From contig NZ_DATIND010000038.1 of assembly GCF_035474595.1 (NCBI RefSeq), forward strand, positions 1-52,158: DNA of 52,158 nucleotides. The letters are read 5' to 3'. Shown here in pieces: positions 16,905-48,462 of this stretch. This DNA is from Longimicrobium sp. Lineage in GTDB: Bacteria > Gemmatimonadota > Gemmatimonadetes > Longimicrobiales > Longimicrobiaceae. The notes under the pieces were generated by a model. That model searched no databases. It worked only from the letters and a program-made list of their open reading frames with translations, and was not told where the DNA came from. Made by a program: the position numbers and the translations under genes. Positions within the stretch are counted from its first letter, which is position 1, and the number at the start of each line of letters is the position of its first letter.

Positions 16905-24800
<7,896 letters not shown>

Positions 24801-28762: not shown

Positions 28763-30334
28763 ATGATCGACCGACCACGTGCCGCACTCGCGGCGCCGGC
28801 GCTGGCGTGCATCCTGGCCCTCGCGGGCCTGTCCACGCACGCGCAGGCGCAGGCCCCCGGACCCGCCCGGCAGGCGGGCACGCCCGGGATCCTGCAGCTT
28901 CCCGCGGTGCGGGCGCGCCCGCCCGCGTCGCGGGTGAACGCCGCCGGGCAACCCGTGGCCCGGCCGGCGGCGCTGGTGCGCCGCCCGGCGGTGCGGCCTG
29001 CGCTGGCCCCGGCCACCGCGCTGGACGAGTCGCCGCAGAAGCCGAACGGCGAGACGCTGGCGCAGATGACCCCCGAAGCGGTGAACGGCGGGCGCCAGCT
29101 CTTTCCCGTGGGCGCGCGGCTGCGCGGGCCGTCGGTGCTGCGCGTGCAGGTGCTGCTGGACCGCGCGCTCTTCTCGCCGGGGATGATGGACGGGAGCTGG
29201 GGGAAGAACACCTCGGTCTCCGTCTACTGGTTCCAGGCGCGCGAGGGGCTGACGCCCACCGGCGTGGTGGACAGCGCCACCTTCGCGCGGCTGGAGCAGG
29301 TGGCCGGCCGCCCGCGCGAGATCGTCGTCCGCCATGTGCTGACGGCCGACGAGGTGCGCGGGCCCTTCCGCGAGCTACCGGGAAACATCTACGAGCAGGC
29401 GCGGCTGGACTGCCTGTGCTACGAGTCGCTGACCGAGAAGCTGACCGAGCTCTACCACTCGCGCGCCGAGCTGCTCCAGCAGCTGAACCGCGGCGTGGCG
29501 CTCAACCGGCTGAAGGCGGGCGACGCCATCTGGGTGCCCAACGTCCGCGACGCGGCCGCCGCGCCGGCGGGGCTCATCTCCACCCTGGTCATCTCCGGCT
29601 CCGACCACTACCTGCAGGCGCTGGACGCCGGCGGGCGCATCCTCTACCACTTCCCCACCACGCTGGGCTCGTCGTACGACCCGTCGCCCGAGGGAAGCTT
29701 CCACGTGCTGCAGGTGACGGAGAACCCCTGGTGGCACTACCAGCCCGCCATCCTGCACCACGGCCACGAGGACGCGCCCGACGCCCAGATCCCGCCGGGG
29801 CCGAACAGCGCCGTGGGGAAGGTGTGGATGACGCTCTCGGCCGGGCACTACGGGATCCACGGCACCAAGAGCCCGGAGACGATCGGGTACGCGGTGTCGG
29901 CCGGGTGCGTGCGGCTGACCAACTGGGACGCGCTGTACCTGGCCCGCCGCATCACCGCGGGAACGCCGGTGGTGTTCCGCGGCACCCGCACGCGCGCGCA
30001 GCAGCCGGCGCAGGCGAGTGCGGCCGCGCGCCAGCCCTCCGCGCCCGCGCAGGCTCGCCCGCCGCTGGCCGGCGTGCGCGCGGACAGCGCCCGTGCGGCG
30101 GCCGCGAAGCCCGCGGCCGGCGACAGCACGCGCCGCGACTCGTCGCGCACCGCCCCCGCGAGGCCGGACAGCGCGCCGTCGCAGCCCGCCACCCCGCCGG
30201 CCGCGCCGCAGACGCAGGCGCCCGCACCGGCTCCGGCAACGACGCAACCTGCAGCGGCAGCGCCCACGTCGACGCCGGCTCCGGCGCCGACGTCTCCCGC
30301 GCCCGTGCGCGCCGACAGCGCGGCAAAGCCGTAA
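28763..30334 (+). CDS. Secreted L,D-transpeptidase with peptidoglycan-binding domains
   Basis: A 523-residue exported cell-wall enzyme that should make 3-3 crosslinks or anchor proteins to peptidoglycan. It has a signal peptide (first about 28 residues, ending AQAQA) and a linker. A peptidoglycan-binding domain (about 115-180, VLLDRALFSPGMMDGSWGKNT) and a LysM-like segment (about 215-265) follow. The YkuD domain (about 273-410) has HYGIHGTKSPETIGYAVSAGC with catalytic Cys382. The last 110 residues are a Pro/Ala-rich disordered tail. The next gene encodes a paralogue with the same domain order, so the pair arose by duplication. A terminator separates them. Confidence 0.9.
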   Translation: MIDRPRAALAAPALACILALAGLSTHAQAQAPGPARQAGTPGILQLPAVRARPPASRVNAAGQPVARPAALVRRPAVRPALAPATALDESPQKPNGETLAQMTPEAVNGGRQLFPVGARLRGPSVLRVQVLLDRALFSPGMMDGSWGKNTSVSVYWFQAREGLTPTGVVDSATFARLEQVAGRPREIVVRHVLTADEVRGPFRELPGNIYEQARLDCLCYESLTEKLTELYHSRAELLQQLNRGVALNRLKAGDAIWVPNVRDAAAAPAGLISTLVISGSDHYLQALDAGGRILYHFPTTLGSSYDPSPEGSFHVLQVTENPWWHYQPAILHHGHEDAPDAQIPPGPNSAVGKVWMTLSAGHYGIHGTKSPETIGYAVSAGCVRLTNWDALYLARRITAGTPVVFRGTRTRAQQPAQASAAARQPSAPAQARPPLAGVRADSARAAAAKPAAGDSTRRDSSRTAPARPDSAPSQPATPPAAPQTQAPAPAPATTQPAAAAPTSTPAPAPTSPAPVRADSAAKP

Positions 30335-30661: not shown

Positions 30662-32101
30662 ATGAAGAAGATCCTGGTCGCGGCGCTGGCGGGGCTGGCC
30701 CTGGCCGCGGGGTGCACGGTGGAGGACAAGACCGGCGAGAAGCAGGCGCCGCCCGCCGAGCGCGGCACCGCGCAGGCCGCCCAGCCGAGTGCCGCGGACC
30801 TGCAGCCGGCCGACGAGCCCGACCTTACGCCGCAGCAGATCGAGCAGGGGCGCTACGCCACCGACTGGACGCAGGTGGTGCAGCTCGACACCACCGGCGC
30901 GGGAAGGCCCATCCGCAACCCCGAGAAAGTGGAGCAGATCACCGCCGACCGGGTGAACAACGGGCCGATGTTCCTCCCGCTCTTCGGAGAGGTGGCCGGG
31001 CCGTCGGTGCTGCGGGTGCAGGTGCTGCTGGACCGCGCGCTCTTCTCTCCCGGCGAGATGGACGGGCACTACGGGAAGAACACCGCCAAGGCCGTGTACT
31101 TCTTCCAGCAGTCGCACGGCCTTCCCCCCACGGCGCGGGTGGACAGCGCCACCTTCCAGGCGCTCGCCCGCGCGGCCGGCTCGCCGAAGGACCTCGTGGT
31201 CCAGCACCGGCTGACCGCGGACGACGTGAAGGGGCCGTTCATCACCATCCCCGAGAACGTGCAGGCGCAAGCCAAGCTCGAGTGCTCGTGCTACAACAAC
31301 CTCACCGAGAAGCTGGGGGAGATGTTCCACGCCGCGCCCGACCTGCTGAAGCGGCTGAACCCGGGTGTGGACCTGGACCACCTGCAGGCGGGGCAGGCGG
31401 TGAACGCGCCGCTGGTGCGCGACGCGGGCGCGGGCGGCGGCGGGCAGGTGGCGCAGATCATCGTGTCGGGCCGCGGCAGCTACGTGCAGGCGCAGGACGC
31501 GAGCGGGAAGATCCTCTACCACTTCCCCAGCACGCTGGGGGCAACGTACGACCCGTCGCCCAGCGGCAGCTTCCGCGTGACCAGCGTGACCCAGAACCCG
31601 GCATGGCACTACCAGCCGGAGCTGATCGCCACGGCCTCCGACACGGCGCACGAGGCGATGGTTCCCGGCGGGCCCAACAACCGCGTGGGCGCGGTGTGGA
31701 TGGCCCTGTCGGCGCCGCATTACGGCATCCACGGCACCAACAAGCCGGAGACGATCGGCTACGCGACCTCGTCCGGCTGCGTGCGGCTGACCAACTGGGA
31801 CGCGCAGTTCCTGTCGCACCACGTGCGCGAGGGAACGCCGGTGCACTTCCGCGACATCCAGGGCCGCTCGTCGGGCCAGGCGTACGGCGACGCGGGAATG
31901 ACGAACGGCGGCGGAGCGCGCGGCGCCGCGGCTCAGGGGCAGGGGACGAAGGCGGACAGCGCCGCGTCCGCCGCCTCGGGCGAGCCGAAGGCCGGCGCCC
32001 ACGGCACGCCGTCCGGCTCGCGCTCCGGCAGCGGTGCCCGCGGCGGCCGCTCCGGCGGAAGCGACAGCTCGAAGAGCGGGAGCGGCACCGCGCGGCCGTG
32101 A
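30662..32101 (+). CDS. L,D-transpeptidase lipoprotein (paralogue)
   Basis: A 479-residue paralogue of the preceding protein, with the same order: peptidoglycan-binding domain (GPSVLRVQVLLDRALFSPGEMDGHYGKNT), LysM-like segment, then YkuD with HYGIHGTNKPETIGYATSSGC and catalytic Cys373. The difference is the start: MKKILVAALAGLALAAGC is a lipobox signal, so it is membrane-anchored through a lipidated cysteine. The C-terminal 90 residues are a Gly/Ser/Ala-rich tail. The ATG at 30662 is chosen over an upstream frame because it gives the lipoprotein signal. One secreted and one lipidated copy suggest different locations in the envelope. Confidence 0.9.
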   Translation: MKKILVAALAGLALAAGCTVEDKTGEKQAPPAERGTAQAAQPSAADLQPADEPDLTPQQIEQGRYATDWTQVVQLDTTGAGRPIRNPEKVEQITADRVNNGPMFLPLFGEVAGPSVLRVQVLLDRALFSPGEMDGHYGKNTAKAVYFFQQSHGLPPTARVDSATFQALARAAGSPKDLVVQHRLTADDVKGPFITIPENVQAQAKLECSCYNNLTEKLGEMFHAAPDLLKRLNPGVDLDHLQAGQAVNAPLVRDAGAGGGGQVAQIIVSGRGSYVQAQDASGKILYHFPSTLGATYDPSPSGSFRVTSVTQNPAWHYQPELIATASDTAHEAMVPGGPNNRVGAVWMALSAPHYGIHGTNKPETIGYATSSGCVRLTNWDAQFLSHHVREGTPVHFRDIQGRSSGQAYGDAGMTNGGGARGAAAQGQGTKADSAASAASGEPKAGAHGTPSGSRSGSGARGGRSGGSDSSKSGSGTARP

Positions 32102-32214: not shown

Positions 32215-32733
32215 TCAGCCGAACTTCTCGTCGGCCGAGGGGCCGTAGAGGCCGGGGACGGGGACGTCGAGGAGGCGCAGGTAGACGGTGAGCTGGCCGC
32301 GGTGGTGGATCGAGTGGCTGATCCCCATGGCGCGGAGCGCCGCGGCGCGCGTCATGGTCAGGAAGGTGCGGCCCTGCGCCTTCAGCGACCAGGTCTGCTT
32401 CCACCCCTCGGCGGGCACGGCGTTCACCGTGGCCACCAGCGACGCGGCGGCCTGGTCGAAGGCGCGCAGCAGCTCCTCGCGGTTCGTGGGCTTGGGCGCG
32501 TCGCGGGGGTCCGCCACGTCGAACTCGTCGCGCGTCAGCGCGATGATGGCCAGGTGCGGCAGCTCGGCGATGTGCGAGGCGATGCGGCCCAGGGTCATCG
32601 ACTTCTCGTGCGGCTTCCAGTCCCAGTGCTCGTCGGGAACCTGCTCCAGCGCGCGGCGGGTGTTCGCCAGCTCGGGCTCCAGGTCGTTGAACGCGAGGGG
32701 ACGCGCGGACGGGGCGGCGGCGGTGTCGGTCAT
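32215..32733 (-). CDS. DinB-family protein
   Basis: A 172-residue four-helix-bundle protein of the DinB/YfiT type. Histidines expected for the metal site appear in the conserved positions: the IASHIAELPH segment and the C-terminal SHSIHHRGQLTVYLRLL. The members are metal-dependent and often thiol transferases or stress proteins; the substrate cannot be told. The ATG at 32733 gives MTDTAAAPSARPLAF, a normal start. Convergent with the transpeptidase gene, sharing the terminator hairpin. Confidence 0.85.
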   Translation of the reverse strand: MTDTAAAPSARPLAFNDLEPELANTRRALEQVPDEHWDWKPHEKSMTLGRIASHIAELPHLAIIALTRDEFDVADPRDAPKPTNREELLRAFDQAAASLVATVNAVPAEGWKQTWSLKAQGRTFLTMTRAAALRAMGISHSIHHRGQLTVYLRLLDVPVPGLYGPSADEKFG

Positions 32734-32867: not shown

Positions 32868-33278
32868 CTACGGCCGCGGCGCCTCCGCCTGCTCGCGGTG
32901 ATAGGCGAAGGTGCCGCGGATCCCCGCCACGAAGGCGACGCCCAGCAGCAGCGCCGGCCCCACGCCGGAGGCGACGGGGCGCGTGTGATAGGCCACCCAG
33001 AGCTCCACCACCACGTAGACGAGGAGCAGCACCGCGCAGACGCGGCTCCGGCGGTACAGCCCGTACGCCAGCAGGAGGATGAGGAGGGGATCGAGGAGCC
33101 AGGCGAGCTCCTCGTCGTCGCTGAAGCGGGCGATCCAGATGAACGAGATCACGCGCACCGTGCCCCAGAGCGCCGCCACCGGCCAGGCGAGGTCGATCAG
33201 CTTGTCGGCCCTGTCCAGCCGCATCTCCAGCCATCCGGGCGAATCGCCGTTCGAGGGGCGGCGGAGCTGGTCCAGCAT
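32868..33278 (-). CDS. Small integral membrane protein, native partner of rsmI
   Basis: A 136-residue protein with about four hydrophobic segments (LAWPVAALWGTVRVISFIWIA, LLDPLLILLLAYGLY, CAVLLLVYVVVELWVAY, LLLGVAFVAGIRGTF). No family recognised. Two in-frame ATGs (33284 and 33278) follow GGGAGG; the second has correct spacing. The TGA that ends the duplicated rsmI 3' copy overlaps the first ATG, so before the island inserted this gene was directly coupled to rsmI. Confidence 0.75.
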   Translation of the reverse strand: MLDQLRRPSNGDSPGWLEMRLDRADKLIDLAWPVAALWGTVRVISFIWIARFSDDEELAWLLDPLLILLLAYGLYRRSRVCAVLLLVYVVVELWVAYHTRPVASGVGPALLLGVAFVAGIRGTFAYHREQAEAPRP

Positions 33279-33292
33279 GCTCATCCTCCCTC

Positions 33293-33395
33293 CCCCGCGG
33301 CTTCCTGGGCGATGCGGTAGGCGTCGTTGCGCGCGATCCCCAGGCGGCGGCGCAGCTCCTTCGCCACCGCGCTGGGCGGCTGCCCCTGCGCCAGC
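33293..33395. repeat. Direct repeat copy 1 (island downstream end; rsmI 3' fragment)
   Basis: 103 bp identical to 36941-37043. In the rsmI frame (minus strand) it encodes the last 34 or so RsmI residues, ending QEAAG and continuing GEGG to a TGA at 33281-33283. It is the original 3' end of rsmI, now detached from the gene body. Confidence 0.95.
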
Positions 33396-33402
33396 CGATA
33401 GG

Positions 33403-35820
33403 TCAGGCTTCCTTCGTGTGAAACCCAGGCGCATAGATCTCGCGCACGACGGCGAGCATCGAACGCAGGGGGTCACCGATTTGATCAATCACGGGCTGTA
33501 TCCGCTCTTGTACTCGTTCCGAGAACGCCGGCGGGAGCTTTTCCGTGACAAGCGCCCACTGCAGTTCCGCGACAAGGACAGGGCTCTGACGAAAATCAGA
33601 ATGCGTTGAAGAGAAACTGATTTCAGCGAGTGCGTCATCAAATTCGCGACCGCTCTCGCTTAGAGCGATCTCCTCCGAAAATGTAGCTCGGAGAAAAGAA
33701 GCACTAAGCAGCGGGTCGTGATAGGCTGTGAGAATTTTAGGTACTTGCCAAGCGTAGTTCGCACCGAATTCCTTTGCCCGTGTCACTCTAATTTCTTGTA
33801 GGGCTGTCGCAACAGCAGCATATGCAGCAGGTTCCTTCAGCCGCTCTCCAAATAGGCTGTGCGGCGACAGACATTCAGCCTCCCTGGACGTAATAGAGCC
33901 ATCTGAGCCACACAGGAAGAGTGAGGACGAAAGGCCACTCTCTGCCTCATGCTGCAACGGCTGAAGTATACCGATTCTAGTTTGGACGAGGCTGAGTACG
34001 GATTCGAGTTGAAATGCATCTAGCGGAACCAAGCGCATTAACCTTTTCCTTGCTGAATCGTCCGAAAGCTCACTGACGACACGACGAAGGATTGAAAGCT
34101 CTTCACACCATGGGCATCGGTGAGGATCATCTGATAGGTAGACCACTTCCCCGGCACCAAGATGTACACCTTCATCTGTTTGTCTAAGAGATGCTAGCAA
34201 CCGGTCCCAGCGCGTTGCGGTGGGGGGTCTGCCAACGATGACGAATGCATGAATTTGATACTCGTCGAGCGGACGCGCGGCTTTCATTTTTGTGATGGTA
34301 TCCTGAAGTAGTCGATGGATCGCACGTATACTCCGACCATGAATAACAACATCGTCTAATATCAGTATGTGTTCGACACCGGCCAGTTTCTCCTCTAATT
34401 CGGTATGCGCACGGTTCGCGTACACGAGATAGTCGTCGTTCGATTCCGCCGAGATTCTCGGGCGAGGTAGTTTAACAACGCTCGGCTTGTGGTAGGCGAT
34501 TTCGGCCAAATCCAACAATGCCGGGGTTGACGGGTGCTCCGGAACAACGATTAGATCGCATAGAGGACTGTGCGTCCGCAACTTCGAAATCATTGAGCGC
34601 CGGAAATCACGGTCTTTTAGAAGGCGTGCGACATCAATTGCCACGGGCAGGTGGCGACGTTCCCCTGTGGAGTCATCGTCTTTATGAACCTGAATAGCCT
34701 CCTGTTCACTCGCGACCTCCCAAAAACGGCGGTGAGCCAACGCATATTCAGGCCGAAGCATCTGTGGCTGGATCGTCCCTTCGATCACGGGAGAGTATGT
34801 TCGTGGATGTATTCTCACAATGGGACGCTTCGCAGTATCTCTGCAAAACTCGCATAATTCACCGCGCGGCACATTAAAACGAACGACGTTGGGGAAATGA
34901 ACGAGGGATGTCGGCTCCGATTCTTCACGGGTATCCACCAGCGCGACCGGGAGAACTCTGGCACGCCGACCGAGAATTCGCGGAGCGAATTCTTGAAATC
35001 CTTTCGCCAGTGATCCAGTCGAAACGACGCTCATAATGAACAGCACAGTTGCATCAGTCTCACTCGAGATTGTTGGGGGCACACGCGCGAGCAGTTGTTC
35101 GACATGCGACACAAACGGGTAGGACTGAAAAGCTAGGATGTGAGGCCTCTTGCCATTCAGCGCTTCCCCTCTGAAGGCGAGTTCTTGGAGGAGCGGCATA
35201 ATCGTCCAAGTATCGCCAATGATAACGGTGTTCTCGGTTAGCTCATGAGTGAGCCAATCGGCGATCCGCGCTATTGCAGCGGTTTCATTTAAACAGTCGG
35301 CAACACGGATGAAGGTATTAGCATGAGTACCTGCGGGTAGCTCAAAATGCGCATTCGGGGGAGAAACAATAGCTCCGGTCCAGTCTAGTTGCGCGCGAAG
35401 TTCTACTTCCCGCAACGTGCGCAGCACGTCGGCCGGGACGTCCTTCTCGGGTTCGACTAAGATGTCTAATCGGGGCGGAAGCGGCCTGCCTTCACTTCGC
35501 GCAAATTCAAGTACCGCAAGCCCGATTTTACGACTCGTCCTCTGATTCAGGTATTCGCTTAGAATGCCGCCTTCTAACTCTACGTGCGTTGGAACCGGTC
35601 CACGAAGCACTAGCAAATCCACATCTAATACTTCGTACGGAAGATCAAGAAGCAGCTTTGCCGGGGAGTCGCTGACCACCTCTGCGGTGTACCAAAGATC
35701 AATCAAAGAGCACGTAAAATCATCGGGTGAAAACGGCAGATCTCTTCGAAACGTCCGAACGCCAAAACCCGGTCGGGCTCTGCAGTAGTACCACGCGGGG
35801 AGTTGCAGTGTATCGGTCAT
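33403..35820 (-). CDS. Tandem phosphoribosyltransferase-like protein of an island operon
   Basis: An 805-residue cytoplasmic protein. A first PRTase-like core (about residues 180-300) has the turn FIMSVVSTGSL where an active enzyme would have two acidic residues, so the PRPP loop is probably degenerate. A second core (about 440-540) has ILILDDVVIHGRSI, an intact DD-x3-G PRPP loop. Two CxxC pairs (CEFC near 322, CPWC near 568) suggest zinc knuckles after each core. The C-terminal 200 residues are helical, of unknown fold. Its ATG overlaps the GHKL gene stop (ATGA), so the two are translationally coupled. Composition is foreign to the host. I infer a nucleotide-modifying conflict-system component; the activity is not proven. 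Confidence 0.75.
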   Translation of the reverse strand: MTDTLQLPAWYYCRARPGFGVRTFRRDLPFSPDDFTCSLIDLWYTAEVVSDSPAKLLLDLPYEVLDVDLLVLRGPVPTHVELEGGILSEYLNQRTSRKIGLAVLEFARSEGRPLPPRLDILVEPEKDVPADVLRTLREVELRAQLDWTGAIVSPPNAHFELPAGTHANTFIRVADCLNETAAIARIADWLTHELTENTVIIGDTWTIMPLLQELAFRGEALNGKRPHILAFQSYPFVSHVEQLLARVPPTISSETDATVLFIMSVVSTGSLAKGFQEFAPRILGRRARVLPVALVDTREESEPTSLVHFPNVVRFNVPRGELCEFCRDTAKRPIVRIHPRTYSPVIEGTIQPQMLRPEYALAHRRFWEVASEQEAIQVHKDDDSTGERRHLPVAIDVARLLKDRDFRRSMISKLRTHSPLCDLIVVPEHPSTPALLDLAEIAYHKPSVVKLPRPRISAESNDDYLVYANRAHTELEEKLAGVEHILILDDVVIHGRSIRAIHRLLQDTITKMKAARPLDEYQIHAFVIVGRPPTATRWDRLLASLRQTDEGVHLGAGEVVYLSDDPHRCPWCEELSILRRVVSELSDDSARKRLMRLVPLDAFQLESVLSLVQTRIGILQPLQHEAESGLSSSLFLCGSDGSITSREAECLSPHSLFGERLKEPAAYAAVATALQEIRVTRAKEFGANYAWQVPKILTAYHDPLLSASFLRATFSEEIALSESGREFDDALAEISFSSTHSDFRQSPVLVAELQWALVTEKLPPAFSERVQERIQPVIDQIGDPLRSMLAVVREIYAPGFHTKEA

Positions 35821-36863
35821 AGGGAGAGCTCGTAGCGTGTCGTGATAGGAATTAACAGCTGCCAAGCAGTGCCGTAGTAGCACACGTCCGGTTCGTTACT
35901 AACTAAATATTTAGGCGAAGAATCCCAATGTTCACTACCGAGCGTGTCGGAGTACATCGATTGCACGCGTGCTCGACCAGAGCGGAGATTCGCAAAGGCA
36001 CGGGCCTCCCCAAACTGCTGTCGGATGATCTCCATTCCCATGCCCGGCCGCGTTTGTGTGCTGATCTGACGCCCCCATTTTCCTTTTGTGGAGGCGCCTC
36101 GCTGCAATGCCTTCTCAAGACGCATTCTTTCGAATGAATAGGGCTGAACATACAAATTTTCGCCTACGCCATTCCGAGCCGAGACCACAAAGTAGCCAGG
36201 GTATGCGACGCCCATTCCACCGTCCGCCACGACCACTTCCAACCATCCGCCTTCTGGTCGCGAGAAGTGGTTAAGATATTTCTCTACGTATCTTGCGACG
36301 TTACCACTTAAGTAAGATAGGGTGCTCTTATGATGGACTATTCCAAGTAAACGCGGAACCAATGGTCGGATAGCTGCCGGTCCGACGCGGGCTGACCCAT
36401 GCTCCTCCGCATTGAGAACTGTCTCAAACGCGAGACGAGTTACCAAGCCGAGCAAGTTCTCAGGAATGGGAATCTCAGCATGGCGGAGGAGCTTGGCGAC
36501 ATTAGCTCTAAAGGTATCAAAGCTCGCCGAAAGGACTGCCTCGGCAGCCGTACAGATCACGCCCCGTGTCACGTAGTGGGGAGCGGCGAAGGAAACCTCG
36601 GCAACACGATCCTCACCACGAATAAATAACGGGTTGAATGCTGACTCAGTGTAGGATCGCTCTGCGACGTAGAACCGCGAATCCGGCAATCGCTCTACCT
36701 CAACAATATCCGCAAACCCCGACAGCGCCGTATACAACACCATGACGTCGAGAACATCTGCTTTTATGGGACCACTAAGTACTAGACGGATGCGTGGAGG
36801 TCGCGCTGCGAGAACATTTGCGATGTCTATGTTCCAACTTTCTCCTGAAACGCGAATCTCCAT
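35817..36863 (-). CDS. GHKL-superfamily ATPase of an island operon
   Basis: A 348-residue protein without membrane helices. The N-terminal 120 residues are of unknown fold. A GHKL ATPase domain follows: the N-box in LAFETVLNAEEHGS (E and N for Mg-ATP), G1 in VVVADGGMGVAY, and a glycine-rich lid in STQTRPGMGMEIIRQQFG. No phospho-acceptor HisKA domain is present, so it is not a standard sensor kinase; the fold is closer to anti-sigma or MutL/HSP90-like uses of GHKL. The ATG at 36863 has AGGTG upstream. First gene of the island operon, with a TTGACA promoter 40-70 bp upstream. Confidence 0.78.
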   Translation of the reverse strand: MEIRVSGESWNIDIANVLAARPPRIRLVLSGPIKADVLDVMVLYTALSGFADIVEVERLPDSRFYVAERSYTESAFNPLFIRGEDRVAEVSFAAPHYVTRGVICTAAEAVLSASFDTFRANVAKLLRHAEIPIPENLLGLVTRLAFETVLNAEEHGSARVGPAAIRPLVPRLLGIVHHKSTLSYLSGNVARYVEKYLNHFSRPEGGWLEVVVADGGMGVAYPGYFVVSARNGVGENLYVQPYSFERMRLEKALQRGASTKGKWGRQISTQTRPGMGMEIIRQQFGEARAFANLRSGRARVQSMYSDTLGSEHWDSSPKYLVSNEPDVCYYGTAWQLLIPITTRYELSL

Positions 36864-36906
36864 GATCACCTATGTGTTTCCAGGGAAGCGCACTTACTAT
36901 GAACGT

Positions 36907-36935
36907 GAGATACCACTTGTTGAAAAATTTGTCAA
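36907..36935 (-). promoter_or_regulatory. Promoter of the island operon
   Basis: On the minus strand TTGACA (36930-36935) is 17 bases from TATCTC (36907-36912). It lies within 6 bp of the island edge, so the module brings its own promoter. Confidence 0.7.
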
Positions 36936-36937
36936 TC

Positions 36938-37795
36938 TTACCCCGCGGCTTCCTGGGCGATGCGGTAGGCGTCGTTGCGCGCGATCCCCAGGCGGCGGCG
37001 CAGCTCCTTCGCCACCGCGCTGGGCGGCTGCCCCTGCGCCAGCAGCGCCTCGGCGATGGAGCGCGCGGCCAGCGCATCGACCTCGTCCTCGGCCTGCTCG
37101 TCGCGGGGGCGGCCGGCGACCACCACCACGATCTCGCCCAGCACCTCGCCCGCGGCGAAGTGCGCGGCGGCCTCGGCCAGCGTGCCGCGCACCATCTCCT
37201 CGTGCAGCTTGGTCAGCTCGCGGGCGACGGCCACTCGCCGCGCCGGGCCGCACGACCCGGCCAGGTCCTCCAGCAGCTTCGCCACGCGGTTGGGAGATTC
37301 GTAGAGCACCGACGCGCGCGGACTGGACGCGACCTCCTCCAGCAGCTCCGCGCGCTCGGGCCCCTTGCGCGGCGGAAAGCCGAGGAAGGCGAAGGTGTCG
37401 GCCTCGATCCCCGACGCCACCAGCGCCGCCAGCAGCGCCGACGCGCCGGGGATGGGAACGACGGGGAAGCCCGCGTCCACCACCTCGCGGACGATGCGCG
37501 CGCCGGGGTCGGAGAGGAGCGGCGTCCCCGCGTCGCTGACCAGCGCCACGCGCTTCCCCTCGCGCAGCATGGCGACAACGGTGCCCGCGCGCGCCGCCTC
37601 GTTGTGCTCGTGCGCGGAAACCAGGCGCGTGTGGATGTCCAGGTGGCGCAGGAGGATGGAAGTGCGGCGCGTATCCTCGGCCAGCACCACGTCCGCCGCG
37701 CGCAGCACCTCGGCGGCGCGCAGGGTGATGTCGCCCAGGTTGCCGATCGGCGTGCTCACCACGTACAGCCCTACGGGCATCTCCCGATCGCTCAC
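36938..37795 (-). CDS. rsmI: 16S rRNA (cytidine1402-2'-O)-methyltransferase
   Basis: Methylates C1402 in 16S rRNA, tuning decoding. The 285-residue protein shows the tetrapyrrole-methylase-type SAM fold: LYVVSTPIGNLGDITLRA, LAEDTRRTSILL, VALVSDAGTPLLSDPG, PIPGASALLAAL and FLGFPPRKG. It is intact: the last codons are the duplicated sequence followed by a TAA supplied by the island edge, so four native residues (GEGG) are replaced by a stop after AAG. The GTG at 37795 with GGAG five bases upstream gives the best start; an ATG at 37780 is the alternative. Confidence 0.93.
   Translation of the reverse strand: MSDREMPVGLYVVSTPIGNLGDITLRAAEVLRAADVVLAEDTRRTSILLRHLDIHTRLVSAHEHNEAARAGTVVAMLREGKRVALVSDAGTPLLSDPGARIVREVVDAGFPVVPIPGASALLAALVASGIEADTFAFLGFPPRKGPERAELLEEVASSPRASVLYESPNRVAKLLEDLAGSCGPARRVAVARELTKLHEEMVRGTLAEAAAHFAAGEVLGEIVVVVAGRPRDEQAEDEVDALAARSIAEALLAQGQPPSAVAKELRRRLGIARNDAYRIAQEAAG
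36941..37043. repeat. Direct repeat copy 2 (inside rsmI, island upstream end)
   Basis: Perfect 103-bp match to 33293-33395, forming the 3' coding end of the intact rsmI. The identity without a single mismatch points to recent insertion or ongoing recombination. Confidence 0.95.
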
Positions 37796-38161
37796 GCCCT
37801 CTCCCCCATCTTCATCCCCATTTGTGAGCCGATCCGGCTTCATCACCGGCGGCTGAAGCCGCAGCAACAACTACGGGAAGCCCCGCAAACTGCGTGAGGC
37901 TGTTCGGCTCGGAACGACGTCCGCGGGCGTCGGTCGAGATTGTCCGAGTTCCAGATTCCCTTTTGACGCACCCATGCCCGCCCGCGAGTCCGCGAAGGCG
38001 GACTTCGGGCCGTTGTTGCCGCGAATTCATTCGCCCTCCGGCGGCCCTCCGGCGGCCCTTCGGCTCCCGGCAACGCCATCCGGCCGGCGTGCAGGGCGCG
38101 CGCCAGCGTCGGGGAATCGAGCCGCCGGTCCGTCAGGAGGGAGAGATTGGGGCGCGGCGGG
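37796..38161. other. Spacer upstream of rsmI with dispersed hairpin repeat
   Basis: No convincing gene. 37846-37905 carries a hairpin repeat whose core is AGCC-CGC-AAACT-GCG-GGCT (see copy at 48388). Further hairpins AGTCCGC-GAAG-GCGGACT (37988-38005) and GGCGGC-type palindromes lie nearby. The rest is GC-rich with no recognisable signal; the rsmI promoter must lie within it. Confidence 0.55.
37846..37905 (-). repeat. Dispersed hairpin repeat, copy 1
   Basis: On the minus strand it reads GAGCCGAACAGCCTC, then an ACGCAGTTTGCGGGGCT hairpin, then TTCCCGTAGTTGTTGCTG. The same order occurs at 48388-48462 with a few substitutions. Both copies are in spacers. Confidence 0.8.
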
Positions 38162-48387: not shown

Positions 48388-48462
48388 GCGACTGAATCAG
48401 TCGCAGCGTCGCATCAACAACCACGGAAAGCCTCGCAAACTGCGCGAGGCTGTTCGGCTCGT
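48388..48462 (-). repeat. Dispersed hairpin repeat, copy 2
   Basis: Minus strand: GAGCCGAACAGCCTC, then a perfect hairpin AGCCTCGC-GCAGTTT-GCGAGGCT, then TCCGTGGTTGTTGATGCG. Order and most bases match 37846-37905. The hairpin stem is better conserved here. Confidence 0.8.

Follow-up and report, generated by a model that had tools for sequence, protein, structure and literature searches.

How does a two-gene module of foreign composition come to lie at the 3' end of a housekeeping gene, between two exact copies of that gene's end and with no recombinase of its own? This question is raised by the rsmI locus of Longimicrobium sp., which we analysed within a window of 52,158 nucleotides (the whole stretch of DNA studied) and compared with the rest of its genome assembly (G000; 6.57 Mb, 163 contigs, ~97% complete, 3.95% estimated contamination) and with related genomes.

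Anatomy of the rsmI island and its empty site

The features of the island and its flanks are as follows.

36938-37807, minus strand: rsmI (TIGR00096, 4.4e-67), closed by a TAA from the island edge
36941-37043, minus strand: near copy of the 103-bp exact repeat, which supplies the intact rsmI with its in-frame 3' end
36886-36935, minus strand: promoter-like sequence TTGACA-17 bp-TATCTC upstream of gene A, by consensus resemblance only
35817-36863, minus strand: gene A (ATG at 36863, stop at 35817), 348 aa, with GHKL-type ATPase motifs; no family match of its own, homologues match PDC-M65A
33403-35820, minus strand: gene B (ATG at 35820, stop at 33403), 805 aa, with phosphoribosyltransferase-like motifs (weak PRTase matches) and a distant PDC-M65B match (7.9e-11)
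33396-36940, no strand: insert proper, repeats excluded, 3,545 bp, 53% GC
33293-33395, minus strand: far copy of the exact repeat, a displaced rsmI 3' end; the single copy in the congener G008 matches both
32868-33284, minus strand: next native gene, coupled through ATGA with the original rsmI end that the far copy retains; a 75.6% identical homologue lies directly after rsmI in G008
32215-32733, minus strand: native DinB-like gene (named by eye), a conserved flank marker, 72% identical and in the same order in G008

The two copies of the rsmI 3' end differ at none of their 103 positions, and the only further match in the 6.57-Mb assembly was one of 39 bp at 82% identity. A chance origin of the repeat is excluded, the expectation for an exact repeat of this length in the window being ~6e-47. 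Between the copies lie only genes A and B, coupled through an ATGA overlap; the promoter-like sequence sits between the near repeat and gene A, and 7 bp separate the gene B stop codon from the far repeat. The island has a GC content of 53% against ~71% for the genome, and its genes have a GC3 of 0.52-0.54, whereas rsmI and the dinB-like gene reach 0.95-0.98. The intact rsmI copy ends GCGGGG-TAA, giving an RsmI terminus of EAAG and not EAAGEGG, while the far copy retains GGGGGAGGGAGGATGAGC, the original rsmI end, with its ATGA overlap with the next native gene. No transposase was found in the island, which holds the two cargo ORFs only, and no terminal inverted repeat was found among the inverted repeats around it; the island therefore lacks the marks of a transposon. 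The anatomy drawn in the preliminary description of this locus, including the absence of an integrase inside the island, stands, its promoter by consensus resemblance only.

Other repeats occur in the window. A 52-bp element is repeated at 37860-37911 and 48410-48461 with 90% identity, and neighbouring paralogous genes, which by eye have an L,D-transpeptidase-type look, share 76% identical stretches at 29589-29987 and 31461-31859. About 15 tandem units of 276 bp (79% matches) form one long reading frame at 19949-24053 and by eye resemble a sensor kinase with iterated HAMP-type segments.

The preliminary description had suggested a comparison of the locus with related genomes for an empty site, and G008 provides one: rsmI, the next gene and the dinB-like gene follow each other in uninterrupted order, with one repeat copy, a single stretch of ~105 bp that matches both copies of the window. 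The rsmI end was also single in all 12 of the other family genomes that have an rsmI-end match at E 1e-11 or better. The unit is thus a clean insertion in the Longimicrobium sp. lineage and, given the empty site, recombination between the 103-bp repeats would restore the ancestral arrangement exactly. The cargo pair was present in one of 60 related genomes (G014, from another genus of Longimicrobiaceae), and a PDC-M65B match in two of 395 genomes of the phylum. No second copy of the gene end that adjoins the G014 pair was found; the contig of this pair stops inside gene A. We conclude that the island is a horizontally acquired two-gene module.

The cargo genes and their likeness to a defence candidate

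Gene B matched the PADLOC model PDC-M65B in two short stretches (E 7.9e-11, 38.9 bits), and the match of its G014 homologue to this model was weak and consistent. A DDVVIHG loop in its C-terminal part resembles, weakly, a phosphoribosyltransferase motif; an LPAGTHA stretch in its N-terminal part is weakly OPRT-like, and a solved-structure profile search returned weak PRTase matches only. Gene A, when aligned with its homologues, shows the N, G1, G2 and GT boxes of GHKL ATPases. Its own protein (P0001) had no family match and did not match PDC-M65A at E 1; the aligned homologues P0006 and P0007 matched that model at 9e-6 and 2e-5. The one match from a solved-structure profile search with gene A was judged unconvincing, and single-sequence AlphaFold models of both proteins were set aside (mean pLDDT 36-37). 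Degenerate-pattern scans found no gene B homologues in viral or genome contigs, and searches for gene B in phages and for gene A in plasmids gave no match.

A homologue of the A+B pair lies beside Avs1 (AVAST type 1) genes in Cupriavidus necator pHG1 (L041:8398-11815). pHG1 is a conjugative megaplasmid, on which the A and B homologues are annotated as hypothetical proteins only. The island shares with PDC-M65 the order of two genes, of which B matches PDC-M65B and the homologues of A match PDC-M65A; it differs in the distance of the relation, with 38.9 bits for B and no match for the island's own A. To our knowledge PDC-M65 is a PADLOC defence candidate without experimental proof, and a literature search found no paper on it. 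The PDC-M65 matches, together with the pair homologue beside Avs1, make a defence role likely for A and B. Judged from sequence comparison, the cargo is thus probably an anti-phage module distantly related to PDC-M65, in keeping with the accessory defence-type cargo that the preliminary description had proposed. In an anti-phage response the GHKL-type ATPase may act as sensor or switch, and the phosphoribosyltransferase-like protein as an effector acting on nucleotide metabolism.

Gene-end duplications elsewhere in the genome and the family

The preliminary description was drawn from one window; other loci and other genomes of the family carry similar gene-end duplications. We scanned 1.84 Mb (28%) of G000, sampled in stretches, and found 24 non-tandem direct-repeat pairs of 80-400 bp. 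Nine of these flank inserts below 63% GC, against a background in which 1.9% of 2-kb windows fall below 62%, and the source sequences of the nine are rsmI, carB, RHS tips and a gene that by eye is trehalose-synthase-like. Four copies of the carB 5' end alternate with three single-gene, low-GC cargo units (L117:9277-13125, contig C1). On contig C46 (L190:15076-16690 and L190:2631-3983), a fulvocin C-related gene lies between two copies of the glmS 3' end that reach as far as the stop codon, with an insert of 66% GC that is only slightly low, and the 5' end of the trehalose-synthase-like gene is duplicated around a small lipoprotein-like gene. RHS 3'-end fragments are duplicated with low-GC genes between them on contig C33 (L105:7471-10678), like displaced RHS tips; these repeats, and an MNT-like repeat at a contig edge in L173, were not grouped with the housekeeping gene-end insertions.

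Across the family the carB 5' end is multiplied, with cargo between the copies, in six of the 11 genomes examined (G000, G001, G005, G008, G009 and G015) and single in at least four, and the glmS 3' end is duplicated in G000, G001, G002, G008 and G009. The cargo at these two genes includes HEC-02A/B (ATPase 1.6e-140). It also includes a TIR protein, a TrlF/Ppl-like ATPase and a toxin-antitoxin-like pair of Xre/MbcA-like and zeta-like genes; several cargo genes are unrecognised or not defence-like, such as those for a matrixin-like protease and an eCIS-core protein. The glmS interval of G008 is 7.9 kb long and not low in GC. An island type with small cargo, an intact housekeeping gene on one side and a displaced gene end on the other is recurrent in this family.

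The boundaries of the duplications were compared. Their length is 103 bp at rsmI, 80-323 bp at carB and 42-228 bp at glmS, and the inner boundary varies, roughly from +68 to +200 at carB and from -57 to -228 at glmS. The outer boundary at glmS lies near the stop codon (0, -1, -2, -2 and -15). At carB, where the copies are mostly alike in outer boundary and orientation, it lies in the promoter region for most copies, those of G008 (-57) and G001 (-69, -80) starting later than the others. The distance from the cargo end to the far copy is often 3-75 bp, and the cargo mostly points away from the intact gene, with exceptions. In the carB promoter region (L117, L165-L176), native and displaced copies have in common a CTTTCC ... 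TATATTCC-like promoter motif with an unconserved spacer and a G+C-rich hairpin ahead of the start codon.

The differences between near and far copies point in two directions. At glmS, 15 differences lie away from the inner end, and 10 of them are synonymous where 25% would be expected (P ~9e-4), in a small pooled sample with a 50-bp cut chosen after the data were seen. This synonymous bias suggests that the near and far ends descend from two functional genes. The carB far copies of G000 carry many nonsynonymous changes, consistent with decay after a simple duplication.

Route of entry and relation to known systems

Taken together, we give an even chance to entry by a homologous single crossover of incoming circular DNA at the gene end, in preference to entry at a fixed integrase site. 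The incoming DNA would have carried the cargo beside an equivalent gene end, would have been circular or become so, and would have undergone one Campbell-type crossover within the gene end. This would leave the gene intact with a donor-derived terminus, followed by the cargo and the displaced end, and recombination between the copies would reverse the insertion. Outer boundaries would fall at the gene terminus because the homology between donor and resident stops where the gene stops. Variable inner boundaries combined with terminus-bound outer ones are predicted by such gene-end recombination and not by a fixed att core. Also counted in its favour are a ComEC homologue in G000 and tyrosine recombinases of the XerC and XerD types only in that assembly. 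Several observations count against the crossover account: the nonsynonymous changes in the G000 carB far copies, the frequent closeness of the cargo end to the far copy, which would not be expected if fragment ends were random, and the barely or not lowered GC of the glmS units of G000 and G008. Because the rsmI copies are identical, mosaicism between donor and recipient cannot be shown there and the rsmI case does not discriminate between mechanisms. The account also leaves the source of the circular DNA without explanation, and neither a circular intermediate nor a donor locus was found. An RNA-mediated route, an idea drawn from the cargo pointing away from the intact gene, was rejected: exceptions to this orientation exist, and it had no direct support.

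The rsmI island could instead be a decayed integrative element, its repeats being the attL and attR of a tyrosine integrase specific for the rsmI 3' end that was lost or acts in trans, and the carB and glmS arrays being accreted remnants. In favour of this are the classical role of gene ends as integrase targets, the restoration of the gene end by the element and the mostly similar outer boundary and orientation of the carB copies. Cis-mobilisable elements (CIMEs) likewise keep attL and attR without integration and transfer genes and form tandems by accretion, with cargo between direct gene-end repeats and an intact target gene (PMC5704250). However, the rsmI unit holds no integrase, relaxase or remnant, and the units described here have one or two genes; by eye, no integrase was seen among the cargo ORFs at the rsmI, carB and glmS loci of the family. 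The tyrosine recombinases of the G000 assembly are of the XerC and XerD types only, no serine recombinase (PF00239) was found in it, and no related element encoding an integrase that shares this site specificity was found in G000 or, by eye, at the family rsmI, carB and glmS loci. There is no fixed short core at carB and glmS, where the spread of inner boundaries at a single target exceeds 100 bp; rsmI is a single case. Several unrelated targets would also require several lost integrases. Attachment cores are usually shorter than 103 bp of exact identity, and the rsmI repeat is long for one. The mobilisation in trans put forward in the preliminary description was thus not borne out as regards an integrase, and we regard a decayed integrative element as unlikely.

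Capture of foreign linear DNA at a staggered break, with long single-stranded ends filled in, would need no homology in the cargo and would yield exact, host-derived duplications of variable length without an integrase. Such an event would be an insertion with long target duplication in its narrow meaning. The identical rsmI copies agree with this, and long, variable target duplications have been reported for restriction-modification genes (PMC3031569, PMC1643837). We nevertheless consider it improbable, since outer boundaries at gene termini are unexpected from random breaks and the excess of synonymous changes at glmS speaks for an origin of the copies from two functional genes. An artefact of assembly or binning, by which foreign sequence was attached at the repeat of a metagenome-derived genome, would accord with the 163 contigs and 3.95% estimated contamination, but is highly improbable: carB and glmS show the same arrangement in independently assembled genomes, common short reads exceed 103 bp in length, the rsmI reading frame has a neat close, and gene order in the flanks agrees with that of G008.

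Homologous crossover at gene ends thus remains our preferred route of entry. More tentatively, and at less than even probability, these units may form an integrase-independent class of mobile gene cassettes that dock by 40-320 bp of a housekeeping gene end, insert serially at hot-spot genes (the carB 5' end, the glmS 3' end, occasionally rsmI and others) without disrupting the gene, and disseminate anti-phage and toxin-type genes within the family. Most small bacterial defence genes have no visible mobilising enzyme that would account for their arrival at housekeeping gene ends. In the present lineage the same outcome is repeated many times and can be followed in empty sites, in older and younger copies and in serial arrays, which makes the route testable, and gene-end repeats offer a signature for defence genes outside classical defence islands.

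Among known systems, integron gene cassettes are likewise small single-gene units in arrays of mostly uniform orientation, with the cargo stop near the recombination repeat. Unlike attC sites, the repeats here are pieces of several unrelated host housekeeping genes, and the genome has no integron integrase. Displaced RHS tips, also present in G000, share the duplicated gene-end fragments with low-GC genes between them; RHS genes are toxin-carrying and polymorphic, whereas rsmI, carB and glmS are ordinary housekeeping genes. The closest anatomical match is the insertion with long target duplication named by Kobayashi's group (Nobusato, Uchiyama, Ohashi, Kobayashi 2000) for long, variable duplications around restriction-modification genes. 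As described in PMC1643837 and PMC3031569, the cargo is small, integrase-free and often composed of restriction-modification genes, the direct duplications are long, variable and recognised by comparison with an empty site, and amplification or loss through the repeats is possible. The rsmI island fits this anatomical definition, with a long exact duplication, an empty site in a relative and, across rsmI, carB and glmS, a duplication length that varies between events. It differs in that insertions of this type recur at particular gene ends throughout the family, form serial arrays at carB and carry other defence types, with the outer boundary near a gene terminus and glmS copies that look donor-derived.
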